Assembly (NCBI RefSeq): GCF_018332655.1
Contig: NZ_BOQL01000084.1
Location: forward strand, 1 to 64,000
Direction: 5' to 3'
Source of the DNA: Actinoplanes auranticolor
GTDB taxonomy: Bacteria > Actinomycetota > Actinomycetes > Mycobacteriales > Micromonosporaceae
Length of the DNA stretch: 64,000 nucleotides
A program made the translations under genes and the position numbers. The notes below the pieces were generated by a model. The model was not told where the DNA came from. It searched no databases and was given only the letters and a program-made list of their open reading frames with translations. Shown here piece by piece: positions 5,281 through 33,125 of the stretch. Positions within the stretch are counted from its first letter, which is position 1; each line of letters opens with the position of its first letter.

Positions 5281-5389
5281 GCAGCGCTCCTTCGCGTTCG
5301 TCCGGCTGCCCCGTTGCAGCATCGTTAGCTACGGGGCCGGCACCGCGAAGAGTTCAGACAAGTTTCTTAAATATTGTTAAGGGTCACCG

Positions 5390-7027
5390 TCAGAGCCGGA
5401 GCGATTCCGGGGCGTGCAGCCGCAGCATGGTCGCCCCGATGTCCCCCGGCACCCGGCGCTTGGTCAGCAGCGAACCGACCACCATGACCAGGAACGCCAG
5501 CGGCACCGTCCAGGCCGCCGGTTGCTCGATCAGCTGCGCCGGCCAGCCCGACAGCGGCGGGCCGAGCACCGTGATCAGCACCGCGGCCATCGCGGCGCCG
5601 CCGCCGGCCAGGATCCCGGCCACCGCGCCGGCGTCGGTGAGCCCCCGCCACCAGATGCCGAGCACCAGCAGCGGACAGAAGCTCGACGCGGCCACGGCGA
5701 ACGCCAGCCCGACCACCTGCGAGACGTCCATGTTCGCCACGTAGATGGACAACGCCATCGGCGCGACCGCGGCCAGCACGGTGGCCAGCCGGAAGTCCCG
5801 GACCGAGCCACCCCGGTCGGCGTGCAGGACGTCGGTGAAGATCACCCCGGCGACGCTGGTGAGCAGACCCGACGAGGTGGACATGAAGGCGGCCAGGGCG
5901 CCGGCGGTGACCAGGGCGCCGAGGAACTGGCCCAGATGCCCGCCGCCGAGGGCCGCCTCCGGCAACAGCAGGACCACCGCGTCGGTGCGGCCGGTCATCA
6001 GCAACTGCGGGGTGTAGATGCGGCCGAGGACCCCGTACAGGGTGGGCAGCAGGTAGAAGAGGCCGACCAGGGCCAGGACCACCAGGGTCGTGCGGCGGGC
6101 CGAGGCGCCGTCGGGGTTGGTGTAGAAGCGGACCAGCACGTGCGGCAACCCCATGGTGCCCAGGAACGTGGCGAGGATCAGCGAATAGGTCGCGAACAGC
6201 GTGGTGTCGCCGCCGGGCAGCAGCCAGTCGGCGCCGCGGTGGTCGTCGACGGTGCTGACCTCCGGCACGGCCTCGCCGGCGGCGAACGTGCGCTCCTCGC
6301 CCTCGGCGACCCGGCTCTGCGAGCCGTCCGGCAGCGTGAGGGTCGCCGCGTCGGTGAAGGTCACGGTCGTGGTGGCCGTGAAGGCCGGGCCGGCCGGGGG
6401 CGTCACGGCCGGGCGGCCGTCCGACTGCCACTGCATGACCAGGAAGATCACAGGTACGGCCAGAGCGGTCAGCTTCAGCCAGTACTGGAACGCCTGCACG
6501 AAGGTGATCGCCCGCATCCCGCCCAGCGCCACGTTGGCGGTGACGACCAGACCGACGAGCAGCGCCCCCCACTCGTACCGGCCGCCGGTGACCGTGGTGA
6601 ACGTCAGGCCCGCACCCTGTAGCTGCGGCACCAGATAGAGACAGCCGATGAAGACGACGAAGACGGTGGCGAGCCGGCGCAGCACGGGCGAGCGCAGCCG
6701 CACCTGGCAGAAGTCGGGCAGGGTGAACGCCCCCGAGCGGCGCAGCGGCGCGGCGACGAACAGCAACAGGGCGAGATAGCCGGCCGCGAAGCCGACGGGA
6801 TACCAGAGGACGTCGACGCCGTAGCGCAGCACCAGTCCGGCGACGCCGAGGAAGGACGCGGCGGAGAGGTACTCGCCACTGATCGCGGCGGCGTTCCAGC
6901 TGGGGCTGACCGAGCGGGAGGCGACCAGGAAGTCCGAGGTGGTACGGGCGAAGCGCAGCCCGTACGCGCCGATCCCGACCGTGACGAGCACGACCAGGAT
7001 CAGCCCCGGGACGACGTACGGGTTCAC
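5390..7027 (-). CDS. Sodium/solute symporter, cation-acetate type
   Basis: A 545-residue polytopic membrane protein of the sodium:solute symporter family, closest in feel to the acetate symporter group. Diagnostic pieces are DFLVASRSVSPSWNAAAISG, an AASFLGVAGL segment in the first transmembrane pair, MRAITFVQAFQYWLK and the helix MSTSSGLLTSVAGVIFTD. A periplasmic loop rich in Thr/Asp sits between helices near residues 220-285. The GTG start at 7027 overlaps the TGA of the small upstream membrane gene in a GTGA junction, so the two are coupled. A monocarboxylate is the likely substrate, by family analogy. Confidence 0.88.
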   Translation of the reverse strand: MNPYVVPGLILVVLVTVGIGAYGLRFARTTSDFLVASRSVSPSWNAAAISGEYLSAASFLGVAGLVLRYGVDVLWYPVGFAAGYLALLLFVAAPLRRSGAFTLPDFCQVRLRSPVLRRLATVFVVFIGCLYLVPQLQGAGLTFTTVTGGRYEWGALLVGLVVTANVALGGMRAITFVQAFQYWLKLTALAVPVIFLVMQWQSDGRPAVTPPAGPAFTATTTVTFTDAATLTLPDGSQSRVAEGEERTFAAGEAVPEVSTVDDHRGADWLLPGGDTTLFATYSLILATFLGTMGLPHVLVRFYTNPDGASARRTTLVVLALVGLFYLLPTLYGVLGRIYTPQLLMTGRTDAVVLLLPEAALGGGHLGQFLGALVTAGALAAFMSTSSGLLTSVAGVIFTDVLHADRGGSVRDFRLATVLAAVAPMALSIYVANMDVSQVVGLAFAVAASSFCPLLVLGIWWRGLTDAGAVAGILAGGGAAMAAVLITVLGPPLSGWPAQLIEQPAAWTVPLAFLVMVVGSLLTKRRVPGDIGATMLRLHAPESLRL

Positions 7028-7492: not shown

Positions 7493-9499
7493 TCAGGAGG
7501 AGGGATAGTCCCCCGGGCAACTCCGCGGGGCCGGCGCCGGATCGTGGGCGAGCAGATCGCGGGCCTGGTACCGGCCGAGATTCCAGCCGCGCCAGTCGTC
7601 CTCGTCCCGCTTCAGGTCGGCGGCGATCGGGGCCAGGACGCAGTCGCGGTCGACCCCGGTCAGGCGGTCCAGGGCCGGCACCGCGTCGGCCGAGAGGTTC
7701 GACAGGTAGCGCGTGTCGATGCGGTCGGTCTGCTCGTAGCGGGTGACGTTGTGGTCGGCGATCAGCCGGTCCGGGTTGGCCCCGGCCAGGCCGAGCAGCG
7801 CCAGCACCCCGGCAGCGACCACGGCCCGGGGCAGCCAGCGCGCGGTGAGCCGGATGCCCGCGATCAGGATGAGCACGAAGACCAGGCCCAGCCACAGTTC
7901 GCAGAGGGAGACCAGCAGCCGCAGCCGGGTCAGGCCGTAGGTGTCGGCGTAGAGGTCCATGCGGTGGGTGGCCGAGGCGACCACGACCAGGGTCAGCACG
8001 GCGAGGGCGCCCAGGATCACGCGGATCAGGACGCGGTCGGTGCCGGTGTCCCGGGGAGCCCACCGGGCCGCCCCGGCGAGGACCACCAGCGTCAGGCCGG
8101 TGACGATCAGGAGCTGCCAGAAGCCGCCGCGGGCGTACTCGGCGTAGGTCAGGCCGTCGGTGTCCAGGACGTGCGCCGACCCTCCGAACAGGACGGTGAG
8201 CTGCACGGCGACGAACATCGCGAACAGCAGCACCAGCAAAGTCAACGGCACCGCCCACTCCAGCCGGGCCACCCGCCGGGTGCCGGGCCGCTCCAGCCCG
8301 CCGAGATCCGGCGGCGCGGCCCGCAGGTACGCGGCACCGCCGAGCACGAACGCGGCCACGACGAAAACGAAGATCCAGCGGGCCACCGTGCCGCCGTCGA
8401 TGTCGGGTACCGCCCGGCCGACCAGGTCGGCGAACGCGGCATCGGCCGAGGCGAACAACGACCCGAAGACAACGAGCAGCACGGCCGAGACGGAGACGGT
8501 GGCGGTGATCCGCAGGCCCCTGCCACCACCGTTGTGCCGGACCGCGGCGAATCCCCGCCTGATCCAGGGCAGGGCCCGGAAACTCGCGAGTGGAGCCATG
8601 AGCACGGCGATGACCATCGCCCGCACCGACCGCCCCCCGGCCACGGCGAGCGCGGCGGTGATCACGGCGGTGCACAGGCACAGGAGGAAGAGCCAGCCCG
8701 CGGCCCGGAGAGTGCCGACCCCGAGCAGGGCCACTGTGGCTGCCGACCAGAAGAAACGGGCTCTGCTAAGGGCGAGGGGGCCCCGACGGACCAGCGGCGC
8801 CGGACCGGCCGTGCGCGGTGCGGGGTCGGGCACCACGCGGGCCACGATGAGCGCGGCGACGCCCGCGATCGCGGTGACGAACCAGCCGACACCGGCCCGG
8901 TCGAGCGGCACGCTGAGCGCGGCCACGGCCGCGGCGACCAGCAGGGCGACGATGGTCGCGCGGGTGGCGGGCCGGGTGGGGCCGGGCCAGCGGTGACCGA
9001 ACAGCGGGGCGTCGGCCCACGGTCCGTGCAGTGGCGCTACCTGCACGGCGGCCTGCGGCGCGCCGGGAAGGCGTTGTTGTGGGCGGTTGTCCGGCGCGGG
9101 CGCCACGGTGGTCCCGGTTGCGGGCCCGGCGGGTTGATCGGTGGTCCGGGCCCGGATCCATTCCGGCGTTGCGACCCGCTTCGCGTGGGGCGGCGGCGCG
9201 GCCGTCGACCAGGCTTCGGTTGCCGAGGCCGGGGGCTGAGCAGGAACCGGGGGTGTGGCGGCCCGGTCGCCCGCAGCACTGCCGCCGGTCGGCGGGACCA
9301 CCGCTCGCGGTGCCGGAGACGCGGTGCCGGGGTGGCTTTCCGCCGAACTGGTCTCCGTCGGCGAGGCCGGTGGTTGAGCGGCAGGCGGGGGTGTGGCGGG
9401 TCGGGTGGGCGCTTGCGGCGGTCTCGCCTGGTCATTTGCAGCGGGCGGTGCTTCGGTGGGTTCGTTGTCGGGAGCCGGGGTCGGGTCGGATGTGGGCAT
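7493..9499 (-). CDS. DUF4173-type multi-span membrane protein
   Basis: A 668-residue protein starts at an ATG preceded by GGAGGAGGA. The first 170 residues are Pro/Ala/Thr-rich and disordered. About a dozen hydrophobic segments follow, then a C-terminal soluble tail with RYLSNLSADAVPALDRL and CVLAPIAADLKRDEDDWRGWNLGRY. The last region, with its buried Asp/Arg pattern, is typical of DUF4153/DUF4173 membrane proteins of unknown function. It lies about 100 bases downstream of a co-oriented two-component system and may be its target or an accessory sensor. Confidence 0.75.
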   Translation of the reverse strand: MPTSDPTPAPDNEPTEAPPAANDQARPPQAPTRPATPPPAAQPPASPTETSSAESHPGTASPAPRAVVPPTGGSAAGDRAATPPVPAQPPASATEAWSTAAPPPHAKRVATPEWIRARTTDQPAGPATGTTVAPAPDNRPQQRLPGAPQAAVQVAPLHGPWADAPLFGHRWPGPTRPATRATIVALLVAAAVAALSVPLDRAGVGWFVTAIAGVAALIVARVVPDPAPRTAGPAPLVRRGPLALSRARFFWSAATVALLGVGTLRAAGWLFLLCLCTAVITAALAVAGGRSVRAMVIAVLMAPLASFRALPWIRRGFAAVRHNGGGRGLRITATVSVSAVLLVVFGSLFASADAAFADLVGRAVPDIDGGTVARWIFVFVVAAFVLGGAAYLRAAPPDLGGLERPGTRRVARLEWAVPLTLLVLLFAMFVAVQLTVLFGGSAHVLDTDGLTYAEYARGGFWQLLIVTGLTLVVLAGAARWAPRDTGTDRVLIRVILGALAVLTLVVVASATHRMDLYADTYGLTRLRLLVSLCELWLGLVFVLILIAGIRLTARWLPRAVVAAGVLALLGLAGANPDRLIADHNVTRYEQTDRIDTRYLSNLSADAVPALDRLTGVDRDCVLAPIAADLKRDEDDWRGWNLGRYQARDLLAHDPAPAPRSCPGDYPSS

Positions 9500-9600
9500 G
9501 GCGGGTCCTCCTCCAGGAGGTTGAGAGCACGGTTGGATAGCGGGCTGCCCAAGAAAGCGGGAGTCCGGTCGGCTGAGAGAGGTGGGGCTGGTCCGGCGCC

Positions 9601-10752
9601 TCAGGAAGGGGCCGGGCGGGCCGGTTGCAAGGGCAGGGTCACGTGGATCAGGCAGCCCGGGCGCTGCGCCTGCACCGTTGTGCCCGGCGGAGTGGCGGTC
9701 GGCGGGCGGGCCGGGTCGACCACGGCGATCGTGCCCTGGTGGAGCTGGACCACCCAGTGGGCGATGGCCAGGCCCAGGCCGGTGCCGCCGCCGGTCGCGC
9801 GTTCGCCGCGGGTGAAGCGTTCGAAGACCCGGTCGCGCTCGGCCGGGGGAATGCCTTCGCCCTCGTCCGCCACCGCCACCACCACGTGGTCGTCGTGGCG
9901 TTCCGCGCGGACGGTGACCGTGCCGCCCGGTGGGCTGTGCCGGGCCGCGTTGTCCAGCAGGTTCGCGAAGACCTGGTGGAGGCGTTCGCGGTCGCCCTCG
10001 ATGCGCAGGGCCGGGGCCGAGACGGCGAAGCGGACGTCGTGACCCGCGCCGTCCGCGTTCACCGTTGCCTCGCGGACCACGTCGCCCAGGAAGGCCCGGA
10101 CGTCGATCGGGTCGCTGGCCATCGGCATCACGCCGGCGTCCAGGCGGGAGAGGTCGAGCAGCTCCGTGACCAGGCGGCCCAGGCGTTCGGTCTGGGTCAG
10201 GGCGGTGCGCATCGTCTCCGGCTCCGCGTCGGAGACGCCGTCGACGATGTTCTCCAGCAGGCCGCGCAGGGCGGTGATCGGTGTGCGCAGCTCGTGCGAG
10301 ACGTTGGCGATCAGCTCGCGGCGCTGCCGGTCCGCCGCCGCCAGGTCCGCGGCCATCTGGTTGAACGCTGCCGCCAGCTCGCCGATCTCGTCGCGGGACG
10401 TGGCGCGGACCCGGCGGGTGTAGTCGCCGCGGGCCATCGCCCGGGCCGCGTCGGTCATCTCCCGCAGCGGAACCGTGGTGCCGTGCGCCGCCACCTGCAG
10501 CGTGACCAGCCCCAGGGCGACGGCGATCGCGAACCAGGACAGCTCCACGCGCATGAAGTCCAGGCTCCACCAGAAGATCAGCAGGCCGACGCCGCCGGCC
10601 AGGCCGAGCGCCACCGAAAGCTTGGCCTTGATCGAGCGGACCGGATCGAGCGGGCGGGGCAGCAAGCCGAGCGCGGGGGCCAGCCAGCCCAGGGCCAGGC
10701 TCAGCGGCAGGGAGACCCAGCGCAGCAGCCGTCCCAGTAGCCGCGATCTCAT
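9601..10752 (-). CDS. Membrane sensor histidine kinase
   Basis: A 383-residue kinase. Two hydrophobic stretches lie near residues 10-35 and 45-85, then a HAMP domain (GDYTRRVRATSRDEIGELA), a dimerisation domain with ANVSHELRTPITALRG carrying the phosphorylated His, and an HATPase domain with N-box HQVFANLLDNAARHS, G1 VADEGEGIPP and G2 GGGTGLGLAIAHW. Almost no extracellular sensor loop separates the two hydrophobic segments, suggesting that it senses within the membrane. The ATG overlaps the response regulator's stop in an ATGA junction. Signal unknown. Confidence 0.93.
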   Translation of the reverse strand: MRSRLLGRLLRWVSLPLSLALGWLAPALGLLPRPLDPVRSIKAKLSVALGLAGGVGLLIFWWSLDFMRVELSWFAIAVALGLVTLQVAAHGTTVPLREMTDAARAMARGDYTRRVRATSRDEIGELAAAFNQMAADLAAADRQRRELIANVSHELRTPITALRGLLENIVDGVSDAEPETMRTALTQTERLGRLVTELLDLSRLDAGVMPMASDPIDVRAFLGDVVREATVNADGAGHDVRFAVSAPALRIEGDRERLHQVFANLLDNAARHSPPGGTVTVRAERHDDHVVVAVADEGEGIPPAERDRVFERFTRGERATGGGTGLGLAIAHWVVQLHQGTIAVVDPARPPTATPPGTTVQAQRPGCLIHVTLPLQPARPAPS

Positions 10753-11444
10753 CGTTCCACTTCCAGGGCGTACCCGACGCCGTGGACCGTGCGGATCAGG
10801 TCGGCGCCCAGCTTGCGGCGCAGGCCCTTGATGTGGCTGTCGACCGTCCTGGTGCCCGAGGCGTCCGCCCAGCCCCACACGTCGGCCAGCAGCCGCTCCC
10901 GGGGCAGCACCGTGCGGGGCCGGCCGGCCAGGTGCACGAGCAGGTCGAACTCGGTCGGGGTGAGCCTGGCCTCGACCCCGGCCCGCAGCACCCGGCGCTC
11001 GGCCAGATTGATCTCCAGGTCGCCGAACCGCAGCATCGCGTTCTCGGCCGGGACGGGCTCCTCCGGGGCGGAGCTGCGGCCGGCCCGCCGGAGCAGGGCG
11101 TGCACCCGCGCGGTGAGCTCGCGCATCGAGAACGGCTTGGTGAGGTAGTCGTCCGCGCCGACCGCCAGGCCGACCAGCAGGTCGGTCTCGTCGTCACGGG
11201 CGGTGAGCATCAGCACCGGCACGCCGCGGTCGGCCTGGATGCGCCGGCACACCTCGAGACCGTCGAAGCCGGGCAGCATGACGTCGAGGACGATCGCGTC
11301 CGGCCGGGTGCGCCGGGCGGTCTCGACCGCGCTCGGGCCGTCGCCGGCGATGTCGACCTCGAAGCCCTCGGCGCGTAGCCGGGCGGCCACCGCCTCGGCG
11401 ATGGTGCGTTCGTCCTCGACCACGAGGACTCTCTTTGCCGTCAC
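10749..11444 (-). CDS. OmpR-family response regulator
   Basis: A 231-residue regulator with a receiver domain (acidic pocket VVEDE, phosphorylatable Asp in IVLDVMLPGFDG, Thr in LMLTARDDE, Lys in YLTKPFSMREL) followed by a winged-helix DNA-binding domain (LTPTEFDLLVHLAG, GTRTVDSHIKGLRRKLG, IRTVHGVGYALE). The start is GTG at 11444. It is first in an operon with the kinase at 9601-10752. Its upstream region contains the cluster of DnaA-box-like repeats at 11569-11649, about 125 bases from the start. Confidence 0.95.
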   Translation of the reverse strand: MTAKRVLVVEDERTIAEAVAARLRAEGFEVDIAGDGPSAVETARRTRPDAIVLDVMLPGFDGLEVCRRIQADRGVPVLMLTARDDETDLLVGLAVGADDYLTKPFSMRELTARVHALLRRAGRSSAPEEPVPAENAMLRFGDLEINLAERRVLRAGVEARLTPTEFDLLVHLAGRPRTVLPRERLLADVWGWADASGTRTVDSHIKGLRRKLGADLIRTVHGVGYALEVER

Positions 11445-13712: not shown

Positions 13713-15257
13713 TTAATACGCGCCCTTGCGCTTCAGCACTACCCAGATGGTCCGCCACAGGATGCCCAGGTCGTACGTGAGCGACCAGTTGTCGACGTAG
13801 TAGAGGTCCAGCCGGACCGCCTCGTCCCAGGACAGGTCGGAGCGCCCCGACACCTGCCACAGGCCGGTGATGCCCGGGCGCACCAGCAGCCGCCGCCGGA
13901 CGTCGCCCAGGTAGTCACCGTCGTCGGCGGGCAGCGGGCGCGGCCCGACCAGCGACATCTCGCCCTTCAGCACGTTGATCAGCTGCGGCAGCTCGTCGAG
14001 CGAGGTGGCCCGCAGCTTGCTCCCGAAGCGGAAGATCCGGGGATCCTCCTTCATCTTGAAGAGCATGCCGTCGGCCTCGTTGAGCTCCTCCAGCGTCGCC
14101 TTGCGTTCCTCGGCGTCCACGTCCATGGTCCGGAACTTCCACACCCGGAAGGTGTGGCCCTCGTGGCCGACCCTGGGCTGGCGGAAGAAGACCGGTCCGG
14201 GGCTGGCCATCTTGATGCCGACGGCGATCACGGCGAGGACCGGGCTGAGGAACAGCAGGCCGAAGAAGGCGGCGACCCGGTCGAGCAGGTTCTTGGCCAG
14301 CCAGCCGGGGCCGGACAGCGTCGGCTCCTCGACGTGCAGCAGCGGCAGGCCCTCGATCGGGCGGATGTGCACGCGCGGGCCGGCGATGTCGGTGAGCTGC
14401 GGGGCGACCACCAGGTCGACGCCGGTGCCCTCGAGGGCCCAGGCGAGCCGGCGCAGCTCGCCGGGCTCGGCGCTGGCCGAGCCGCAGACCGCGATGGTGT
14501 CGCCGCCGACCTCGCGGACCAGGGCGAGCACGTCGCGGCCCGCGTACACGGGCACGGGTGTCTCGATGCCTCTGGCTGCTGAGTAACCGTCGGTGAGATG
14601 GATGGCCACGGGTATCAGGCCGGCGGCCGGGCTGCGGGTGACGGCCGTGTAGACCTCGAGGGCCTCGGGCAGGGTGCCCATCAGGATCATCCGGTGCGCG
14701 CCGTGGCCGGTGCGCCGGCGGGCCACGTGCAGCACCTGGCGGGCCGAGTAGCGGCAGAACAGGATGAAGATCAACGCAGCGACGCAGACGTAGGCCACCG
14801 TCACGCGGGAGAGCTGGGTGCGCGTGCCGAAGGCCAGCAGGGACACCGCGGCCACCACCGTGATGGAGGAGCGGAAGACCCGTTTGAACTCCTCGCTGCC
14901 CAGCCCGAGGTAGCGGCGGTCGTAGCTGCCGTTGGCCCAGAGGGTGAAGATCCAGCCCAGCGGCAGGCCGACGAAGGCGACGAAGTAGAAGATGTTCTCC
15001 CGGTCCTGGAAACCCGAGCTGGCCTTCTGGATGAAGGTCACGGCCAGGGCACTGGCCAGAATCGCCGAGACGAAATCCAGGATGATCAGGATCAACGTGT
15101 ACGGCCGGTGCCAGCGCGACAGGCGGCGGTGCGAGCGGGTCCAGGCGGATCTGGGTACGCCGTTACTCGGCGGCGGCTCCTGCTGCCACTCGAAACTGTC
15201 GTACGGCATGCCGCTCCGGCTCTTGCTGGTTCCCGGGCGTTGGAGGCTTGTGGTCAC
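13713..15257 (-). CDS. Exopolysaccharide sugar-1-phosphate transferase (WbaP/CpsE type)
   Basis: A membrane enzyme of about 514 residues. Five hydrophobic segments and a CoA-binding-like domain (about 170-300) precede a C-terminal bacterial sugar transferase domain with FFRQPRVGHEGHTFRVWKFR, TSLDELPQLINVLKGEMSLV, GPRPLP and RPGITGLWQVSGR. It should transfer a sugar phosphate to undecaprenyl phosphate, starting a surface polysaccharide. The GTG at 15257 was chosen because GGGAGGA precedes it; an ATG at 15278 is also open. A TATAGT box lies at 15383-15388. No polymerase or flippase follows directly, so the rest of the pathway is elsewhere. Confidence 0.88.
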   Translation of the reverse strand: MTTSLQRPGTSKSRSGMPYDSFEWQQEPPPSNGVPRSAWTRSHRRLSRWHRPYTLILIILDFVSAILASALAVTFIQKASSGFQDRENIFYFVAFVGLPLGWIFTLWANGSYDRRYLGLGSEEFKRVFRSSITVVAAVSLLAFGTRTQLSRVTVAYVCVAALIFILFCRYSARQVLHVARRRTGHGAHRMILMGTLPEALEVYTAVTRSPAAGLIPVAIHLTDGYSAARGIETPVPVYAGRDVLALVREVGGDTIAVCGSASAEPGELRRLAWALEGTGVDLVVAPQLTDIAGPRVHIRPIEGLPLLHVEEPTLSGPGWLAKNLLDRVAAFFGLLFLSPVLAVIAVGIKMASPGPVFFRQPRVGHEGHTFRVWKFRTMDVDAEERKATLEELNEADGMLFKMKEDPRIFRFGSKLRATSLDELPQLINVLKGEMSLVGPRPLPADDGDYLGDVRRRLLVRPGITGLWQVSGRSDLSWDEAVRLDLYYVDNWSLTYDLGILWRTIWVVLKRKGAY

Positions 15258-15382
15258 CTCGCCTACGTCCTCCCGCATCACGTACCGCCCACACCGAGAA
15301 CATTACGCACCGCCACGGCCCTGGGGGCTCCGGCGGGGCCGCCGGTCCCTGACGCGCCGCGCACGAAGCGTGGGACCGGGCC

Positions 15383-16390: not shown

Positions 16391-17581
16391 GTGAAGGTCG
16401 TCGTAGCGCACAACAGATATCGCGAGGCCATCCCGTCCGGCGAGAACGTCATCGTCGACACGGAGATCGCGCAGCTCACGGCGGCCGGGATCGAGGTGCT
16501 GCCGTTCCAGCGCGCCTCCGACTCGATCGGGGAGCTGCCGCTCGCGCAGAAGGCCCTGCTGCCGCTGTCGCCGATCTTCGGCCGGGCGGCGCAGCGGGAC
16601 CTCGCCGACCTGCTCCGGCGGGAGCGCCCGGATCTGCTGCACCTGCACAACCCGTACCCGTTGCTGTCGCCGTCGGTCGTGCGGACCGCGCACGCGCACG
16701 GCGTGCCGGTCGTGCAGACCGTGCACAACTACCGGCAGGTCTGCTCGTCCGGTCTCTACTTCCGGGACGGGCACAACTGCCACGACTGCCGGGGCAAGGT
16801 GGTGGGCTGGCCGGCCGTCGTGCACAAGTGCTATCGCGGTTCGGCGGCGCAGAGCGCTCTGATGGCGACCACGCTGGCGGTGCACCGGCCGACCTGGAAG
16901 TCGGTGGACCGCTACATCGCGCTGACCGGACGGATCGCCGACCACCTGCGGAACTACGGCATTCCGGACGACCGCATCGTGATCAAGCCCAACGGCCTGC
17001 CGGATCCCGGCGACCCGGAGCCGCTGGGTGACGGTTTCCTGTACGCGGCCCGGCTCTCCCCGGAGAAGGGCCTGGCGTTGCTGCTCGACGCGTGGCGCCG
17101 GCACCCCGACGGGGCACTGGGGCAGCTGCGCATCGCGGGCGACGGCGAACTGCGTCCCCTCGCCGAGCAGGCCGCAGCCGAGCGGGCCGACGTCACCTAT
17201 CTCGGCGCGCTGGATCAGGCCGGCATGGTCGCCGCCCGCCGGGCCGCCTCGGTGATCGTGGCCGTGCCGACCTGGGACGACGTACTGCCCACAGTGATCC
17301 TGGAGGCGATGGCCGCGGGCCGGCCGGTGCTCGGCACCGACGTCGGCGGGATCCCGTACCTGGTCGGGATCGGCGAGACCGTGACGCCGGCCGGCTGGGC
17401 GGTCGGGCCGGACCCGGAGAAGCTGGCCACCGCGCTGCCGATCGCCCGCGCCGACGCCGCGGCGGTCGCCCCGGCCGCTCGCGACCGCTACCTGCGCGCC
17501 TTCCATCCGGACGTGGTGACCCGGCGGCTCATCGACATCTATGCCGATCTCACAGGTAATTCCCACCCGGCATCGAGGTAG
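16391..17581 (+). CDS. GT4-family glycosyltransferase
   Basis: A 396-residue GT-B fold enzyme. The N-terminal acceptor domain has ENVIVDTEIAQLTAAGIEV and LLHLHNPYPLLSPSV, and the C-terminal donor domain has GDGFLYAARLSPEKGLALLL, GDGELRPL and the nucleotide-sugar motif PTWDDVLPTVILEAMAAGRPV. A Cys/His-rich patch (CSSGLYFRDGHNCHDCRGK, about residues 118-136) is unusual and may bind a metal. The start is GTG at 16391, eight bases after TAGCGT, so the mRNA is probably leaderless. Neighbours suggest a role in a surface glycan. Confidence 0.9.
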   Translation: MKVVVAHNRYREAIPSGENVIVDTEIAQLTAAGIEVLPFQRASDSIGELPLAQKALLPLSPIFGRAAQRDLADLLRRERPDLLHLHNPYPLLSPSVVRTAHAHGVPVVQTVHNYRQVCSSGLYFRDGHNCHDCRGKVVGWPAVVHKCYRGSAAQSALMATTLAVHRPTWKSVDRYIALTGRIADHLRNYGIPDDRIVIKPNGLPDPGDPEPLGDGFLYAARLSPEKGLALLLDAWRRHPDGALGQLRIAGDGELRPLAEQAAAERADVTYLGALDQAGMVAARRAASVIVAVPTWDDVLPTVILEAMAAGRPVLGTDVGGIPYLVGIGETVTPAGWAVGPDPEKLATALPIARADAAAVAPAARDRYLRAFHPDVVTRRLIDIYADLTGNSHPASR

Positions 17582-17612: not shown

Positions 17613-19133
17613 GTGACCGAAGCCAAACTTTCGCGCCGCAACCTCCTGCTCGGCGTCGGCGGTGCCGTGGTGTTCACCGCGGCCGGTGCCGGGGCCGGCT
17701 ATGCGATCGCCGACAGCAAGGACGACGCCGAAACCCCGCAGGCCGCCCCGCAGGCCGGCCCCGCGAAGTACCGGTCCCGCCCCGACCTGCGCACGCTGCC
17801 CGACGTCACGATCACGACGCCGGCCAACGCGACCGCCCCCGGCTACATCTTCCTGACGCCGGCGTCCGGCGCCGGCCTGTGGGGCCCGCTGATCGTCGAC
17901 GACAAGGGCTCGCCGGTCTGGTTCCGCAAGGTGCCCGACCCCGCCACGGTGGCGATCGACTTCAAGGTCCAGCAGTACCAGAACAAACCCGTCCTGACCT
18001 GGTGGGAGGGGACGATCGGCGGCACCGGCGGGCAGGGTGTCGGGCAGGGCGAGTTCGTCATCGCGGACATGTCCTACCGGGAGATCACCCGGGTCCGGGC
18101 GGCCGGCTCCGAGCAGGCCGATCAGCACGACTTCGTGATCACGCCGGACGACACCGCGATCTTCTGGGTCTACGACCCGGTCCCGTACGACCTGTCGGCC
18201 GTGGGTGGACCGGCCGACGGCGTGCTGCACGACGGTGTCATCCAGGAGATCGACATCCGGACCGGCAAGCGCGTCTTCGAGTGGCGGGCGCGCGACCACG
18301 TCGCCCTGTCCGAGTCGTACGCGCCGCTGCCCCAGGGCGACTCCGCGCACCTGCCGTACGACTACTTCCACGCCAACTCGGTCGGGCTCGACGCGGACGG
18401 CCACATCCTCGTCTCGGCCCGGCACACCTGGGCGAACTACAAGATCGATCGCAGGTCGGGCGAGGTGCGCTGGCGCCTCGGCGGCAAGAAGTCGGACTTC
18501 ACCCTCGACGAGAAGTCCAAGTTCAGCTGGCAGCACGACTTCCGGCGCCGGCGGGACGGGTCGTACAGCATCTTCGACAACGGCGCCGGCATCACCAAGG
18601 AGCGCGAGGAGTCCCGCGGCCTGGTCTTCAAGGTCGACGAGGCGGCCAAGACGGTCACCTTCGTGCAGGAGTTCCTGCACCCGAAGAAGCTCTCCGCGCC
18701 GACGCAGGGCAACTTCCGCGAGCTGGCCGACGGCGGCTCGTTCATCGGCTGGGGCCAGCAGCCCTACTTCACCGAGTACGCCCCGGACGGCACCGTACGG
18801 CTGGACGGGCACCTGCCGCTCGACAACCAGTCGTATCGCGCGTACAAGGCCGAGTGGGCCGGTGCGCCGCTGGATCAGCCCGCCCTGGGTCTGCACGTCG
18901 ACGGCGGCAACGTGGTCGTCAGCACGAGCTGGAACGGCAGCACCAAGGTCGCCAAGTGGCGGGCCCGGGCCGGCGGCCAGCCGCAGGCGCTGACCCAGAC
19001 CGCCGAGGCCGCCCGCACCGGCTTCGAGACCACGCTGCAGCTGCCGGGCACGCCGGAGTACGTCGTCGCCGAAGCGCTCGACAGCAGCGGGAAGGTGCTG
19101 GGGACCTCGTCGGCGATCCCCGTCCGCGTCTGA
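17613..19133 (+). CDS. Tat-exported arylsulfotransferase-like (ASST) protein
   Basis: A 506-residue protein with a twin-Arg signal (LSRRNLLLGVGGAVVFTAAG) at the very N-terminus, so the folded protein should be exported. The rest resembles the arylsulfotransferase beta-propeller: repeated hydrophobic strands plus conserved histidines in QHDFVITPDD, DYFHANSVGLDADGHILVS, SARHTWANY and FSWQHDFRRR. ASST enzymes move sulfate between phenols, but many actinobacterial members have no known substrate. A GTG at 17613 places the Tat signal at residue 7; its ribosome site is weak. It follows the GT4 gene by 31 bases. Confidence 0.78.
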   Translation: MTEAKLSRRNLLLGVGGAVVFTAAGAGAGYAIADSKDDAETPQAAPQAGPAKYRSRPDLRTLPDVTITTPANATAPGYIFLTPASGAGLWGPLIVDDKGSPVWFRKVPDPATVAIDFKVQQYQNKPVLTWWEGTIGGTGGQGVGQGEFVIADMSYREITRVRAAGSEQADQHDFVITPDDTAIFWVYDPVPYDLSAVGGPADGVLHDGVIQEIDIRTGKRVFEWRARDHVALSESYAPLPQGDSAHLPYDYFHANSVGLDADGHILVSARHTWANYKIDRRSGEVRWRLGGKKSDFTLDEKSKFSWQHDFRRRRDGSYSIFDNGAGITKEREESRGLVFKVDEAAKTVTFVQEFLHPKKLSAPTQGNFRELADGGSFIGWGQQPYFTEYAPDGTVRLDGHLPLDNQSYRAYKAEWAGAPLDQPALGLHVDGGNVVVSTSWNGSTKVAKWRARAGGQPQALTQTAEAARTGFETTLQLPGTPEYVVAEALDSSGKVLGTSSAIPVRV

Positions 19134-19134
19134 G

Positions 19135-19872
19135 TCAGCCCTTGAGGGCGGCCCGCCCGGAGAACGCGATGCTGGCGGCCAGGAAGGCCCCGTTGACCAG
19201 GGTGAACGCGCCGATCACGAAGATCGTCCACTGTGGCGCCAGGGTCAGCACCAGGCCGGCCAGGGCGATCACCGCACCGTAGTCGCGGACCAGCTTGACC
19301 ACGCGGACCGGCAGCGAGCGGCTCGTCACCATGCTCGACGCCTGGCTGCCCGTCTGCATCACCGAGGTGACCAGGTTGACCATCCAGGTGCCGGCGAAGG
19401 CGGCCACCAGCCACGCGGGAGTCTCCGGCACCTGGGCCTCGGCCACCGCGGACAGGGCTGCCACCAGCGCGATCTGGCCGGCCACGTCGCACAGCACGTC
19501 GACCCGGCCACCGGCCGCGCTGGTCTGGCCGGTGACCCGGGCCAGCTGGCCGTCGGAGCAGTCCAGCGCGTACGCGAACTGCCAGCCGAGCAGCGCGAGC
19601 AGACCGACCGGCCAGGCCCACACCTGGCCCTCGGCGACGGGTCCGGCCGCCGCCACGACGACGAACGAGACCAGGCAGCTGAGGCCCAGATTGGCCACGG
19701 TCAGCACCGTGGGAGCCAGCCGGTGCTTGTGGGCGAAGACGGCGATCCGGGCACCCACCCGCTGGCTGACCGCCTCGCTGAACAGCCCGCCGCCCCGGTT
19801 CACGCCGTAGTAGTCGGCGGCGGTGGGTGGGCGGTCCACTGTCGGCTCAGAGGCCGGCGACGGCGTCGTCAT
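19135..19872 (-). CDS. CDP-alcohol phosphatidyltransferase family enzyme
   Basis: A 245-residue membrane enzyme with about six hydrophobic segments. The catalytic signature is perfect: Asp104, Asp107-Gly108, Ala111-Arg112, then Gly121, Asp125 and Asp129 with the correct spacing. This family transfers a phospho-alcohol from a CDP-activated donor to an alcohol acceptor in the membrane. It is the last gene of a three-gene operon and its start overlaps the end of the dehydrogenase gene by 26 bases. Given the operon, the donor could be CDP-glycerol made from glycerol-1-phosphate; this is inference. Confidence 0.9.
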   Translation of the reverse strand: MTTPSPASEPTVDRPPTAADYYGVNRGGGLFSEAVSQRVGARIAVFAHKHRLAPTVLTVANLGLSCLVSFVVVAAAGPVAEGQVWAWPVGLLALLGWQFAYALDCSDGQLARVTGQTSAAGGRVDVLCDVAGQIALVAALSAVAEAQVPETPAWLVAAFAGTWMVNLVTSVMQTGSQASSMVTSRSLPVRVVKLVRDYGAVIALAGLVLTLAPQWTIFVIGAFTLVNGAFLAASIAFSGRAALKG

Positions 19873-20908
19873 ACTCGGCCAGCTTCCTGCGGATCTCGTC
19901 CGTCGACATCGCGAGGTGTTCCAGGATGGTGTAACGGTCCGGCCGGGTCCGCGGGGCGAACTCGACGACCTCGACGAGCTGCTCGCGGGTCAGGCCCACG
20001 TCACTCGCCGTGCGGGGCAGGCTGTGCCGCACCAGGCAGTCGGACATCTGGGCGAAGCGGCGCTCGTCGCCGCGCAGGAACGTGCAGAACAACGCCCCGA
20101 GGCCGGCGAGCTCGCCGTGCGAGGCCGTGCCGGGGAACAGCGTGTCCGTGGCGTGGATGATCTCGTGGCAGCCGCCGCTGCACGGCCGGCTGCTGCCGCA
20201 GACGGCCATGGCCAGACCGCTCGAGATCAGGGCCTCGGCGAGGATGGTGACGAAGGCGTCGTCCTGCATGTCGCCCGGCATGTTCAGGATGGCCTCGGCA
20301 CCGACCCGCGACAGCGACGCCGCCAGGCCGTCGACCGGCTCGCCGCGGATCTCCCGGCCCAGGTCCCAGTCGGCCAGCGCGCTGATGTTGCTGATCACGT
20401 CGCCGATGCCGGCCCGGTTGACCCGCTCCGGGCCGTTCTCCACGAAGTCCAGGTCGACGATCACCGCGTACGGGATGTGCACGCCGTAGGAGCCCTTGAC
20501 GCCGTCGTTGATCAGGCTGGCCACCGGGGACGCGATGCCGTCGTTGGCCAGGCTGGTCGCCACCGACACCATCGGCATGCCCCAGCGGTTGGCCGCGTAC
20601 TTGGCCGCGTCGACGGTCTTGCCACCGCCGATGCCGACCACCGCGTCGTACGAGCGGGAGCGCAGCTTCGCCGCCAGCTCCAGCGCGGCGTCGAGGGTGC
20701 CGCCGGTGGTCGTGTAGACGTCGGCCGAGCCCAGCGACGGCCGGATCATCTCGGCGATCCGCTCGCCCTGACCCGGGCCGACCACCACGGCCACGTCACC
20801 GCCAGCCGAGATCCGGCCGTCGGCCAGGATGCGGCCCAGGTCCGCGACCGCGCCGCGGCGGACGTCGATGTGCAGCGGGGTCTGGACGCTGCGGGCTAGT
20901 AACGGCAT
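19847..20908 (-). CDS. sn-Glycerol-1-phosphate dehydrogenase-like enzyme
   Basis: A 353-residue iron/zinc-containing alcohol dehydrogenase relative. The nucleotide loop GGGKTVD (94-100) and the following SVATSLANDGIASP match the glycerol-1-phosphate dehydrogenase (EgsA/AraM) subgroup. Metal ligands are visible as Asp in GIGDVISN and His in GGCHEIIHATD and SHGELAGLG. The expected reaction is dihydroxyacetone phosphate to sn-glycerol-1-phosphate, the stereochemistry used by archaeal lipids. The start overlaps the upstream cytidylyltransferase gene by 13 bases. Confidence 0.8.
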   Translation of the reverse strand: MPLLARSVQTPLHIDVRRGAVADLGRILADGRISAGGDVAVVVGPGQGERIAEMIRPSLGSADVYTTTGGTLDAALELAAKLRSRSYDAVVGIGGGKTVDAAKYAANRWGMPMVSVATSLANDGIASPVASLINDGVKGSYGVHIPYAVIVDLDFVENGPERVNRAGIGDVISNISALADWDLGREIRGEPVDGLAASLSRVGAEAILNMPGDMQDDAFVTILAEALISSGLAMAVCGSSRPCSGGCHEIIHATDTLFPGTASHGELAGLGALFCTFLRGDERRFAQMSDCLVRHSLPRTASDVGLTREQLVEVVEFAPRTRPDRYTILEHLAMSTDEIRRKLAEYDDAVAGL

Positions 20909-21627
20909 GCGATGTCCCGCGCCTTGGCGAGGTCGTCGTGGTTGTCCACCTCGACCCAGGGGATGTCGCCGATCGCCGCACCGCGGATCTCGCCGCCGCG
21001 GTCGGCGTACTCCTGGTAGCCGTCCTCGTAGTACAGGTCCGGGTTGCGCTCGAAGGTCGCCTGCAGCGCGTCGGCCAGGCCGGCGGCCGCCTCGGCCTCG
21101 ATGATCGTGGCGCCGATGTACTCGCCCGAGGCCTCGGCCGGCTCCATCAGTTTCGTAATCTTGGTGAGCCGGCCATCTGCCGAGAAGACTGCCTTCATCT
21201 CCTCGTCAGCAAGCTTCTTCACATTGTCAATGGCGAGCAGGATGCCGGGGCCGCGGTTGGCCAGCAGGGTCTGCTCCACGCTCACCGGGTGCACGGTGTC
21301 GCCGTTGACGAGCAGTGCGCCCTGGGCGAAGTGGTCCCGCGCCAGCCACAGCGAGTAGGCGTTGTTCCACTCCTCCGCCTTGTCGTTGTGCACGAGGGAG
21401 ATCTTCACGCCGTACTTCCGCTCGAACGCGTCCTTGCGCTCCTCGACCGCGCCGGCCTGGTAGCCGACCACGATCGTCACGTCCGTCAGCCCGGCCGCCG
21501 CGAGGTTGCGCAGGGAGATGTCCATGATCGTGGTCTCCCCGTCCACGGGGACCAGCGCCTTCGGCAGCGTGTCCGTGTAGGGACGCAGCCTGCGTCCGGC
21601 GCCGGCGGCGAGTACCAAGCCGATCAT
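20896..21627 (-). CDS. LicC-like nucleotidyltransferase
   Basis: A 243-residue enzyme with the nucleotidyltransferase signature LVLAAGAGRRLRPYTDTLPK at residues 4-23, NGDTV as the metal-binding turn, and a closing PWVEVDNHDDLAKARDI, as in phosphocholine-type cytidylyltransferases. It should activate a small phospho-alcohol with CTP. It opens the three-gene operon with the dehydrogenase and phosphatidyltransferase, so glycerol-1-phosphate is the favoured substrate, with inositol phosphate or another polyol phosphate as alternatives. The ATG at 21627 has GGAAGGAA upstream. Confidence 0.85.
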   Translation of the reverse strand: MIGLVLAAGAGRRLRPYTDTLPKALVPVDGETTIMDISLRNLAAAGLTDVTIVVGYQAGAVEERKDAFERKYGVKISLVHNDKAEEWNNAYSLWLARDHFAQGALLVNGDTVHPVSVEQTLLANRGPGILLAIDNVKKLADEEMKAVFSADGRLTKITKLMEPAEASGEYIGATIIEAEAAAGLADALQATFERNPDLYYEDGYQEYADRGGEIRGAAIGDIPWVEVDNHDDLAKARDIACRY

Positions 21628-24780: not shown

Positions 24781-26235
24781 GTGCCGTCACGCCAGGATCA
24801 GCTGCACTCGTACCAGTACTCGCAGCAGCGGGTGGTGGCCGCGCTGGTCACCCACGACCCCGATCCGCACCGCTCGCCGCTGCGCCGGGCCGGCAGCGCG
24901 GCCCTGATCAGCCTGGTCGTGGCCTCGCTGGCCGTCGGTGGCGCCGCCGTCTACGGCATGCTCAAGGGGCGCAGCTCGGTCGATCCGCGCAACGAGGCCG
25001 TGGTGTTCCTGGAGAAGGGTTCGGGCGCCCGCTTCGTCTACCTCAAGTCCGACGACCGGATGCACCCGGTGCTCAACTACAGCTCGGCGCTGCTGATCGC
25101 CAACGCCACCGAGCCCAAGATGGTCGACGCCTCGTCGCAGAGCCTGGCCAAGGTGCCGCTCGGCGATCCGCTCGGCATCCCGGACGCCCCCGACTCGCTG
25201 CCGGCGGCCAAGGGCGGGATGGCCGCGCGGGTGTGGACGGTCTGCTCGCGGACGCCGGCCGATTCCGGCTCCGGCACGCCGGCGCAGAGCCTGCTGGCGG
25301 TCGGCGTGCGGCTCTCCGACGGCACCGTGCTGCCCGTGCCGCGGGCTGACACCCCCGCCGCCGATCTGCGCGGGCTGCTCGTCGCCGATCCGTCCGGCCG
25401 AACCTATCTGGTCTACAACAACAAGCGGTTCCTGATCCCGGCCGGCCGGCTGCAACGCACCCAGTCCTTCCTGGGCTGGACCCAGCAGCCGCTGCCGGTC
25501 GCGGCGGCCTGGATCAACGCGGTGCCGATCGGCCCCGACCTCAAGCCGCCGGCGATCCAGGACTTCGGTGACCCGTCGCCGGCGATCGACGACTTCGAGA
25601 TCGGTCAGCTGCTGCGGATCCGCGGCGATGCCAGTGGCACGGACAAATGGGGCGTGGTGCTGGGCGACGGCGTGGCCGACATCACCGACGTGCAGGCGCG
25701 GCTGCTGCAGGTCGACCCGGAGGCGTACGACCGCCGCGACATCGATCTCAATCTGTACAGCAGCTTGCCGCACTCCCGGACCCAGCTGATCGGCGAGGCC
25801 GCTGCCGCGGGCCTGCCGCCGGCGGTCCCGGTGCTGCTCAACGGCCCTGAGCAGGTGTGTCTCAGCTACGACGGCGAGGACCCCAAGGGTGTGATCAGCA
25901 TCCGGATCGGTCCGACGGCGCCGAGCGGCAGCCCGGTCGCCGGCGCACCGGCCGTCGCGGGCGGCGTGCAGGCTGACTTGGTGCACGTGCCGCGCGGCAA
26001 GGGGGCGCTGGTCGTCGCGGCCGCATCACCCACGGCACCGGCCGGCAGCGGCACGGTCAGCATCGTGACGGACACCGGCCGCCGCTACCCGGTCGCCAGC
26101 CGTGACGTGCTGCCCCGCCTCGGCTACGCCGGCGTCGAGCCCGTCCCGATCCCGGGCCAGCTCGTTTCGCTACTGCCCCAGGGACCGGCGCTCGACCCGG
26201 TGCGAGCCCGCCGGGGCGACTCCACCCAGGGCTGA
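24781..26235 (+). CDS. eccB: Type VII secretion core protein EccB
   Basis: A 484-residue protein starting at GTG with GGGGAGGG upstream. It opens with the characteristic MPSRQDQLHSYQYSQQRVVAALV, has one membrane helix near residues 38-58, and then a long extracytoplasmic domain with VFLEKGSGARFVYLKSDDRMHPVLNYSSALLI split by family-typical Cys residues. EccB is a structural part of the ESX membrane complex. No eccC, eccD, mycP or EsxA/B-type genes are in the neighbourhood, so this copy is either an orphan or separated from its locus. Confidence 0.92.
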   Translation: MPSRQDQLHSYQYSQQRVVAALVTHDPDPHRSPLRRAGSAALISLVVASLAVGGAAVYGMLKGRSSVDPRNEAVVFLEKGSGARFVYLKSDDRMHPVLNYSSALLIANATEPKMVDASSQSLAKVPLGDPLGIPDAPDSLPAAKGGMAARVWTVCSRTPADSGSGTPAQSLLAVGVRLSDGTVLPVPRADTPAADLRGLLVADPSGRTYLVYNNKRFLIPAGRLQRTQSFLGWTQQPLPVAAAWINAVPIGPDLKPPAIQDFGDPSPAIDDFEIGQLLRIRGDASGTDKWGVVLGDGVADITDVQARLLQVDPEAYDRRDIDLNLYSSLPHSRTQLIGEAAAAGLPPAVPVLLNGPEQVCLSYDGEDPKGVISIRIGPTAPSGSPVAGAPAVAGGVQADLVHVPRGKGALVVAAASPTAPAGSGTVSIVTDTGRRYPVASRDVLPRLGYAGVEPVPIPGQLVSLLPQGPALDPVRARRGDSTQG

Positions 26236-31099: not shown

Positions 31100-31555
31100 A
31101 TGGACGTGTTCTCCCGTACGTTCCTGCCCGCCGCCGCCGAAGCCGGGGTCGCGATCCCCACCGTGAGCCGGCACATGCCCATCTTCCGCCGCTGCGTGGA
31201 GCCCGACGACGCCACGGTGCTGGTCACCCGGTGCGTCAGCCCGGACCGGCCGCTCGCCGGTGACTTCCTGCTGCTACTCACGTACCGCCGGATGGTCGTG
31301 ATCCAGGAGACCCGGGTGTTGCACCGGTTGCGGCTGCACCTGAACGCCAACCTGCGCCACCTGAGCGACGTCACCTGGCACCCCGACCTGCGCACTTCCG
31401 TGGTGGATGTCGCCGCGACCGCGGTGGACGGGGTGCGCGAGCGGTTCCGCATGCGCCTGGCCGAGCCGGCGCAGGTGTGGCACGTCGACGCGCTGCTCAA
31501 GCACGTGTTCCGCGAGCGCCGCACACCTGCGTTCCCGGCCACGGTCGCCGCTTAG
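31100..31555 (+). CDS. Hypothetical protein, possible PH-like fold
   Basis: A 151-residue soluble protein, not recognised as a named family. It is rich in beta-strand-like stretches (DATVLVTRCVSPD, DFLLLLTYRRMVVIQETRVLHRL, LHLNANLRHLSDVTWHPD) and ends in a helix (AQVWHVDALLKHVFRE), a layout compatible with a PH-like barrel. It has no signal peptide or membrane span. The ATG at 31100 is the first in frame. Its end overlaps the end of the convergent transketolase gene by four bases. Confidence 0.7.
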   Translation: MDVFSRTFLPAAAEAGVAIPTVSRHMPIFRRCVEPDDATVLVTRCVSPDRPLAGDFLLLLTYRRMVVIQETRVLHRLRLHLNANLRHLSDVTWHPDLRTSVVDVAATAVDGVRERFRMRLAEPAQVWHVDALLKHVFRERRTPAFPATVAA

Positions 31556-32439
31556 CTCCCTGCTCGGAGGAAGGCGCTGATCGAGGCGCGCAGACCGGTC
31601 GCGTCCAGGCCGTGCCAGCGCGCATGGTCGGCGGGGGTGCCATAACGCCGCTGCTCCGCGCGGCCCACCCCGAGATGCAGACCGCGATGCGGTACGTCGG
31701 ACAGCGCCGCCGCCACCAGCCGGCTCGACGTGCCGGCCAGGTAGGGCTCCACCACGACCACCTCACGGCTGACCAGCTCCCGCAGCCCCCGGGTGTCGAG
31801 CGGCCTCGGCGTCAACGTGTACGCGACCGTGACATCCAGGTCCGCGGTGGCGGCGAGCACCGGATCGAGCATCGGCCCGACCGCCAGCACCACCGGCGCC
31901 CCGGCCCAGCCCTGCCGCACGACCTGCAGCTTGTCGGTCGCCGCGTACGCCCGGCTGTTCTGCTGCGACGAGAGCCGCACGTAGATCCGGTCGTCGTTGC
32001 GCGCGGCCGCCCGCAGCAGGGCCGGCACCTCGTTCGGGTGACCCGGCACGTGCACGGTCCAGCCCTCGAGCGTGTCCAGCAGCGCCACGTCGCCGGGTGA
32101 CTGGTGGGTGTAACCCTCGCTGGACGCGTCGTACGAGGCACCGATGCTGACCAGGACGGCGCCCACGTCCTGGTGGCCGAGGTCCAGCTTGATCTGCTCG
32201 TAGGCGCGGTCGATCACGAACGGCGCGTACGAGTGCACGTACGGCCGCAGCCCGGTCAGCGCGAGCCCGCCGGCGACCCCGGCCATGAGCTGCTCGCGGA
32301 TGCCGACGTTGATCACCCGGTCCGGATGCCGGCGCTGGGCCGGCGCGAACGCGTCGCCGGAGATGTCGGCGAGCACCACGGCGGTCCGCGGATCCTCCTC
32401 GAGGAGAGCGGTGGTGGTGGCGACGAAGGTCTCTCGCAT
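31552..32439 (-). CDS. Transketolase, C-terminal subunit
   Basis: A 295-residue protein covering the pyrimidine-binding and C-terminal domains of a split transketolase: VVLADISGDAFAP, RVINVGIREQLMAGVAGGLAL with the essential Glu that activates thiamine diphosphate, and SYAPFVIDRAYEQIKLD. It should pair with the N-terminal subunit encoded five bases upstream. Split enzymes occur in archaea and in many bacterial secondary or specialised pathways. Expression probably depends on the SoxR-like regulator divergent from the operon. Confidence 0.9.
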   Translation of the reverse strand: MRETFVATTTALLEEDPRTAVVLADISGDAFAPAQRRHPDRVINVGIREQLMAGVAGGLALTGLRPYVHSYAPFVIDRAYEQIKLDLGHQDVGAVLVSIGASYDASSEGYTHQSPGDVALLDTLEGWTVHVPGHPNEVPALLRAAARNDDRIYVRLSSQQNSRAYAATDKLQVVRQGWAGAPVVLAVGPMLDPVLAATADLDVTVAYTLTPRPLDTRGLRELVSREVVVVEPYLAGTSSRLVAAALSDVPHRGLHLGVGRAEQRRYGTPADHARWHGLDATGLRASISAFLRAGS

Positions 32440-32444
32440 GATCC

Positions 32445-33125
32445 TCAGCCTTTCTTCTCGACGGCGGCGACGACGACGTGCGGACGGTCGCGGTCACGCT
32501 GCCGCAAGGCGATCTCGATGGCCTCGTGGTCGCGGCCATCCACTGTGGAGGCGGTCCAGCCCGGGAACCGGCTGGCGATCCCGCCGGGCCAGCCGTGGGT
32601 GGACGACTGGTTGTCGATGACGATCGCGGTGAGCTTGTCGAGCCGGGCGGCGGCCGCGTACGCGATCGCCTCATGGTTGGAACCCTCGTCCAGCTCGGCG
32701 TCGCCGAGCAGTACGAACGTCCGGGCGTCGAGTCCCTGCGCCCGCAGTCCCAGGGCGGTGCCCACGCCGAGGCCGAGCCCGTGCCCCAGCGAGCCGGTGC
32801 CGATCTCGACGCCGGGGATCAGCACCCGGTCGGGGTGGTGGCCGAGCGGGCTCTCCGGCCCGCCGAGATCGTCGAGCCAGTCGACGGGGATGAACCCCTT
32901 GGCGGCGAGCACGGCGTAGTAGCCGGCCGGCCCGTGCCCCTTGGAGAGCAGGAACCGGTCGCGGTCCGGATCGTCAACGGTGTCGGGCGACACCCGAAGC
33001 ACCCGGTCGTAGAGCACCCAGAGCACGTCGAGCGTCGAGTAAGCGCTGGGTGCGTGCTTCTCATCACCGGTCAGCCGGGTCAGCAGAGTGCCCAGCAGGT
33101 CTGGATTTACCGCTGTCGTGGTCAT
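32445..33125 (-). CDS. Transketolase, N-terminal subunit
   Basis: A 226-residue subunit that binds the diphosphate part of thiamine diphosphate: RFLLSKGHGPAGYYAVL, GTGSLGHGLGLGVGTALGLR and the metal motif LLGDAELDEGSNHEA extending to AIVIDNQ. ATG at 33125 is seven bases after a CAGGCT -10 box that stands 19 bases from TTGAGT, so it is probably leaderless and the intended start. Together with the next gene it makes one transketolase. Confidence 0.9.
   Translation of the reverse strand: MTTTAVNPDLLGTLLTRLTGDEKHAPSAYSTLDVLWVLYDRVLRVSPDTVDDPDRDRFLLSKGHGPAGYYAVLAAKGFIPVDWLDDLGGPESPLGHHPDRVLIPGVEIGTGSLGHGLGLGVGTALGLRAQGLDARTFVLLGDAELDEGSNHEAIAYAAAARLDKLTAIVIDNQSSTHGWPGGIASRFPGWTASTVDGRDHEAIEIALRQRDRDRPHVVVAAVEKKG

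Follow-up and report, generated by a model that had tools for sequence, protein, structure and literature searches.

In a 64,000-nucleotide stretch of Actinoplanes auranticolor DNA (contig NZ_BOQL01000084.1, positions 1 to 64,000; the whole stretch is called the window, and its source genome measures 9.9 Mb), three overlapping genes encode a LicC-like nucleotidyltransferase, a dehydrogenase resembling glycerol-1-phosphate dehydrogenases (G1PDHs) and a CDP-alcohol phosphotransferase, referred to below as CT, DH and PT. The triad probably serves as an envelope-phosphodiester module in which dihydroxyacetone phosphate (DHAP) would be converted to sn-glycerol-1-phosphate (G1P), G1P to CDP-sn-1-glycerol, and phosphoglycerol would be placed on an envelope acceptor; both the sn-1 stereochemistry and the identity of the acceptor are predicted. 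G1P is the glycerol phosphate stereoisomer of archaeal lipids. A broader proposal is put forward more tentatively, namely that CDP-sn-1-glycerol is produced and consumed by many Actinobacteria, whose G1PDH would serve envelope glycans decorated with phosphoglycerol, or teichoic acids built from G1P, and would replace TagD, rather than supply ether lipids.

The CT-DH-PT triad and its predicted reactions

The three genes are arranged as follows.

20896..21627, minus strand: CT, LicC-like and CTP-dependent nucleotidyltransferase, with glycerol-1-phosphate cytidylyltransferase as its predicted function (243 aa; PF00483)
19847..20908, minus strand: DH, glycerol-1-phosphate-dehydrogenase-like protein (353 aa; PF13685)
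19135..19872, minus strand: PT, CDP-alcohol phosphotransferase whose predicted role is moving glycerol phosphate from CDP-glycerol onto an envelope acceptor (245 aa; PF01066)

Open frames lie at exactly the coordinates from which the earlier note had described overlaps of 13 and 26 bases: CT and DH share 13 nt (20896-20908), and DH and PT share 26 nt (19847-19872). Codon usage is of the coding type in all three genes. A simple gene finder favoured a later PT start, at 19839, under which the 26-nt overlap vanishes; in many relatives, the PT start at the 19872 ATG recurs together with the overlap. DH shares 98% protein identity with its counterpart in Amorphoplanes nipponensis, and the nearest named relatives of the locus are Actinoplanes-type Micromonosporaceae. 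When DH was used as bait in the genome collection, 19 further Micromonosporaceae loci were found, and the same triad, which the earlier note had suggested looking for in other genomes, is present in every one of them. The CT and DH starts occupy identical relative positions in all 19, so the 13-nt overlap is kept. The same gene order, CT-DH-PT, in 20/20 loci including the window, together with the kept CT-DH spacing, argues that the triad is not a chance arrangement.

DH matches PF13685 (Fe-ADH_2) with 110 bits, above the Pfam cut-off, and its best solved relatives are the archaeal G1PDHs 4rgq, 4rfl and 5fb3, along with 3ce9. In an alignment with named references, the blocks DGxxSP, GDxxSNxxAxxDW, SRPxSGxxHExxHA, HGE and RPxRxTIL are all present in the window DH and its close relatives, while two annotated glycerol dehydrogenases (GldA) do not have the full set. 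In a tree, two glycerol dehydrogenases and a Listeria Fe-ADH split off from the other 37 rows with support of 100/100, with a long-branch warning at the join. Judged from these motifs and this grouping, G1P, formed from DHAP, is the likely product of DH, the single gene of its type in the window genome.

CT matches PF00483 with 53 bits, above the Pfam cut-off, and stands outside the TagD-type PF01467/TIGR01518 family. A profile built from 18 DH-linked CTs matched LicC (1jyk) over its full length with 95 bits, followed by PntC and then by inositol-1-phosphate cytidylyltransferase (IPCT), and the three top Foldseek entries for the AlphaFold model (pLDDT 96) are IPCT 4jd0, PntC-AEPT 6pd2 and LicC 1jyk. 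LicC, PntC and IPCT are CTP users that act on small phospho-alcohols or phosphonates. The fold suggests that CT would likewise use CTP, and genome context points to G1P as its substrate. Phosphocholine is disfavoured as a substrate, since Glu143 of CT aligns with LicC Trp (W136), which we take to be part of the choline site, and no lic genes were noticed at the locus.

PT matches PF01066 with 37.9 bits against a cut-off of 22. Its D-x2-DG-x2-AR-x8-G-x3-D-x3-D motif is intact, and the motif residues are kept in 13 aligned PTs. In profile comparisons, the CDP-alcohol domain of DUF5941 proteins comes closest to PT (hhalign E 3e-12), ahead of the small PT that adjoins the Streptomyces CT-DH pair (E 1.9e-7). 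The structure model has a low pLDDT (61.6), and its best Foldseek matches, IPCT-DIPPS 4mnd, AF2299 and PIP synthases, include none at E<=0.001, so the fold match is suggestive.

In the pathway proposed here, DH would reduce DHAP to G1P, as its family implies, and CT would combine G1P with CTP to give CDP-sn-1-glycerol and pyrophosphate, with CTP use predicted from the fold and the substrate from context. PT, a membrane enzyme, would then take phosphoglycerol from CDP-glycerol and attach it to an acceptor bound to the membrane. The likeliest acceptor is an envelope glycan, linked to polyprenyl or lipid and of the neighbouring GT4/WbaP type. The window genome also contains three genes for TagF-type glycerophosphotransferases, and because it has no clear TagD (no TIGR01518 match over the cut-off), one CDP-glycerol pool may feed these enzymes as well. 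The earlier note had proposed that G1P is made, activated and transferred to give an unusual lipid or phosphodiester. The three-step scheme remains the best fit to the DH motifs and tree, the CT fold and the PT family; genome context makes teichoic-acid-like or phosphoglycerol-decorated envelope glycans a likelier destination than an unusual lipid.

The CT-DH module and its co-occurrence with TagF

As a module, the CT-DH pair is older than the triad and occurs with other PTs in many Actinobacteria. A search of 396 actinobacterial genomes with DH gave a close set of 29 genomes (E<1e-95, a threshold chosen after seeing a gap from 4e-100 to 2e-57) and more distant homologues. Thirty DH regions were fetched (20 with a close DH, 10 with a distant one), and CT adjoins DH in most of them; among the exceptions are L074, a 4.3-kb contig, and L087, where a CT-like match lies about 3.3 kb off. 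Plasmid-borne relatives of DH in Nitratidesulfovibrio, Cytobacillus and Priestia have no cytidylyltransferase among their annotated neighbours.

In an annotated S. fungicidicus record, the order is DUF5941/PT, CT, DH, PT, GT2, ABC permease and ABC ATPase, beside hopanoid genes; family f5 genomes syntenic with this record are called Streptomyces-type. The ABC exporter beside their CT-DH pair is TagGH-like. PMC13118837 places araM, tagG, tagH and a CDP-alcohol PT in one Streptomyces syntenic region and links them to teichoic acid and secondary metabolism. Genes for TagF or glycerophosphodiester phosphodiesterase (GDPD) stand beside or near CT-DH in L067 and in the distant-DH loci L085, L086 and L088. 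A second DH copy is found in Streptomyces-type genomes (L070 and L073), flanked by an RNase E/G-type gene on one side and rplU-rpmA-obg on the other, with CT alongside in L070; the lone DH of L073 has two TagF-type genes about 7 kb away.

The DUF5941/CDP-alcohol protein, which accompanies CT-DH in Streptomyces-type loci, directly precedes a GT2-TagF gene in three Micromonosporaceae genomes. In the window genome its gene (L104, 6955-8976) overlaps the GT2-TagF gene (8973-11147), both assigned by Pfam, and in the other two (L113, L114) ABC permease, ABC ATPase, DUF5941/CDP-alcohol protein and GT2-TagF follow in series. In L116, of the Streptomyces type, two ABC genes with 65% and 83% identity to the CT-DH-linked pair lie between a TetR-like gene and GT2-TagF. 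This order resembles S. roseosporus tagR-tagG-tagH, a likeness of order that does not establish gene identity. In PMC10269677, Bacillus tagG was tried as a rescue of an S. roseosporus tagG deletion, and the authors regard TagG as a wall teichoic acid transporter.

The occurrence of TagF (PF04464, E<1e-20) and TagD (TIGR01518, E<1e-25) was compared with that of DH, both thresholds having been chosen after the search results were seen. TagF is present in 25/29 close-DH genomes and in 24/367 others (Fisher p 4e-22); counted by genus, the figures are 6/9 with close DH and 18/237 for the rest (p 3e-5). Among TagF-bearing genomes, TagD is present in 0/29 of those with DH (25 with a close and 4 with a distant one) as against 6/20 of those without it (p 0.003), or, by genus among the TagF-bearing, in 0/10 against 6/14 (p 0.02).

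Contrary evidence and alternative readings

Several results count against the proposed module or narrow its reach. The DH score on the NCBIfam G1PDH equivalog NF002022 is 246.5 bits, far under the cut-off of 413, which leaves G1P formation short of proof. Two of the fetched regions (L073 and L081) have DH without CT. TagF is missing from 4/29 close-DH genomes (G266, G083, G278 and G044), so TagF cannot be the sole user of the product, and a strict rule that CT-DH always occurs with TagF fails in these four. At E<=1e-15, TagD-like matches appear in 5/29 TagF-bearing DH genomes and in 10/20 without DH, and in the window genome itself one gene belongs distantly to the TagD superfamily (52.8 bits against a cut-off of 165.4). 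The co-occurrence counts, moreover, are not phylogenetically independent, because one genus supplies 19/29 close-DH genomes. The nearest TagD match of the window genome is a 139-aa CTP_transf_like protein (L106, 4434-4853) encoded beside arabinofuranosidase-type and sugar ABC genes, as judged by eye.

The distribution of PT is also wider than that of the triad. Among 121 genomes of the window's order, 19 have a PT match at E<=1e-20, and 12 of these carry the triad: the window genome, G192, L119-L127 and G327, the last counted from adjacent DH and PT coordinates with its CT not viewed. In three others, PT and CT-DH occupy separate places in the genome. The remaining four (L128-L131) lack DH, and their PT is paired with another nucleotidyltransferase that is about 31% identical to CT. 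A strict rule that PT always occurs with DH is therefore rejected, and PT can evidently serve another activated alcohol. The alternative partner is a LicC/GlmU-like nucleotidyltransferase whose gene overlaps PT or lies close to it; in L131 the overlap of PT and partner is 4 bases (5323-6030 and 6027-6794). Since GT4 is found in 15/16 fetched PT-baited regions and the nucleotidyltransferase partner is changeable, the acceptor, probably a GT4-made glycan, may be constant while the donor varies.

The alternatives to a G1P-based envelope module are taken here from the most to the least probable. It is unlikely that the pair supplies ordinary CDP-sn-3-glycerol, with CT acting on sn-glycerol-3-phosphate (G3P), promiscuously like Cps3B and Cps7B, and DH making G3P or having some other role. 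DH contains the complete set of G1PDH motifs, G1PDHs are its relatives in the Protein Data Bank (PDB), and tight CT-DH coupling would be pointless were G3P the substrate. G3P is made by nearly every bacterium. Points for this alternative come from the enzymology in PMC8262930, where Cps3B and Cps7B take both enantiomers with a preference for G3P, which is also preferred by the tested TagF-like polymerases.

A Kennedy-type lipid route, in which PT would move phosphoglycerol from CDP-sn-1-glycerol to diacylglycerol to give phosphatidylglycerol or a related lipid, is improbable. PT's profile relatives in the PDB are indeed choline/ethanolamine phosphotransferases, which use diacylglycerol, and the stereochemistry would be compatible, the head group of phosphatidylglycerol having the sn-1 configuration. 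Yet the window genome contains ten other CDP-alcohol phosphotransferase matches, presumably including the normal phosphatidylglycerol route, and the constant partner of PT is GT4 and no lipid gene.

There is little to recommend a soluble phosphodiester such as glycerophospho-inositol, made by a split version of archaeal IPCT-DIPPS. That protein (4mnd) is the top Foldseek entry for PT, and CT and PT score 56.6 and 30.9 bits on the bifunctional IPCT/DIPPS model NF041135; these scores, however, fall far under its cut-off of 580, no inositol-phosphate synthase was noticed at the locus, and related loci contain exporters and TagF. Nor is it at all probable that DH reduces a different phospho-ketone or phospho-aldehyde whose product, another phospho-alcohol or a phosphonate, is activated by CT as PntC does with aminoethylphosphonate. 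PntC is among the best profile and fold matches of CT, and PT is able to pair with a different nucleotidyltransferase, but DH falls in the G1PDH group, no phosphonate gene was noticed among the neighbours read, and the TagF and GDPD neighbours point to glycerol. An archaeal-type ether lipid made via AraM/PcrB is rejected as highly improbable: the survey PMC6431249 lists Streptomyces G1PDH homologues among possible archaeal-lipid genes, but the coupling of DH is to a cytidylyltransferase, and the window genome gave 0 matches to PcrB/GGGPS in a search that was positive in 7/14 control genomes.

Neighbouring genes and known systems

Two genes near the triad are candidates for making its acceptor. 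Here as elsewhere, gene names taken from sequence alone were given by eye unless backed by Pfam (e.g., RNase E/G, rplU, obg, Wzx-like, TetR-like, rhomboid-like and peptidyl-prolyl isomerase-like).

16391..17581, plus strand: GT4 glycosyltransferase (Pfam), the most constant neighbour of PT and possible maker of the acceptor glycan
13713..15281, minus strand: WbaP/EPS-type polyprenyl glycosylphosphotransferase (PF02397; TIGR03025, 398 bits, above the cut-off), possible initiator of the acceptor glycan

Both are found in 15/20 Micromonosporaceae loci, two of the five misses being on short contigs, and whether the WbaP-like gene belongs to the triad system is uncertain. Between GT4 and PT, a convergent gene for an arylsulfotransferase (ASST-like, PF14269) with a TAT-signal-like start (17613-19133) ends one base before the PT stop and is present in 9/20 loci. 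An obligatory operon of the triad with the GT4, ASST-like and WbaP-like genes is unsupported by these counts. The earlier note had taken the surrounding envelope genes as strengthening its idea; they prove to be a moderately conserved setting and not a fixed part.

The other flank is invariant in 20/20 loci, with an aminotransferase, CorA, a rhomboid-like and a peptidyl-prolyl isomerase-like protein. This flank also has EccB of type VII secretion (24781-26235; 18/20 loci), beside which no other type VII gene was noticed. Farther along the window, transketolase is encoded as two adjacent genes for the pyrimidine-binding and TPP-binding halves (31552-33125), adjoining a MerR-like gene (by eye), and the product of 34862-36457 has an animal haem peroxidase domain (PF03098).

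No description of the triad combination or of bacterial CDP-1-glycerol was found in the open-access literature searched. The parts are known, and what is new is probably their combination and the presence of CDP-1-glycerol in bacteria, from which it is considered "likely absent" in PMC8262930. If the proposal is true, a widespread bacterial G1PDH group has another job, the supply of sn-1 phosphoglycerol for wall and glycans, and Actinobacteria without TagD gain a CDP-glycerol source. Bacteria would then put the "archaeal" mirror-image glycerol phosphate on their envelope, a use thought to be missing from them.

Among known systems close to the triad, the Streptomyces araM-tagGH-CDP-alcohol PT region of PMC13118837 has the same kinds of genes in synteny; the consulted passages of that paper propose no pathway, CDP-glycerol or stereochemistry, and the Micromonosporaceae form differs in consisting of the triad alone, with another kind of PT. 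LicC, the CTP:phosphocholine cytidylyltransferase, agrees with CT in fold and overall alignment but differs at the presumed choline-site Trp and in the lic context. The IPCT-DIPPS of Archaeoglobus and Thermococcales likewise combines a LicC-type CT with a CDP-alcohol PT and carries the head group on CDP; the triad, in contrast, consists of separate genes instead of one fused protein, has its own dehydrogenase and does not imply inositol. Archaeal G1PDH (EgsA) and Bacillus AraM share with DH the Fe-ADH_2 fold family and the motif set, whereas the window DH, under the equivalog cut-off, is coupled to a cytidylyltransferase and PT in a genome without PcrB. Finally, the TagD-TagB-TagF pathway of wall teichoic acid synthesis also uses CTP-activated glycerol phosphate for envelope phosphodiesters, and TagF relatives co-occur with the CT-DH pair; the triad is set apart from it by a LicC-type CT, a predicted G1P rather than G3P precursor and an extra integral-membrane CDP-alcohol PT.

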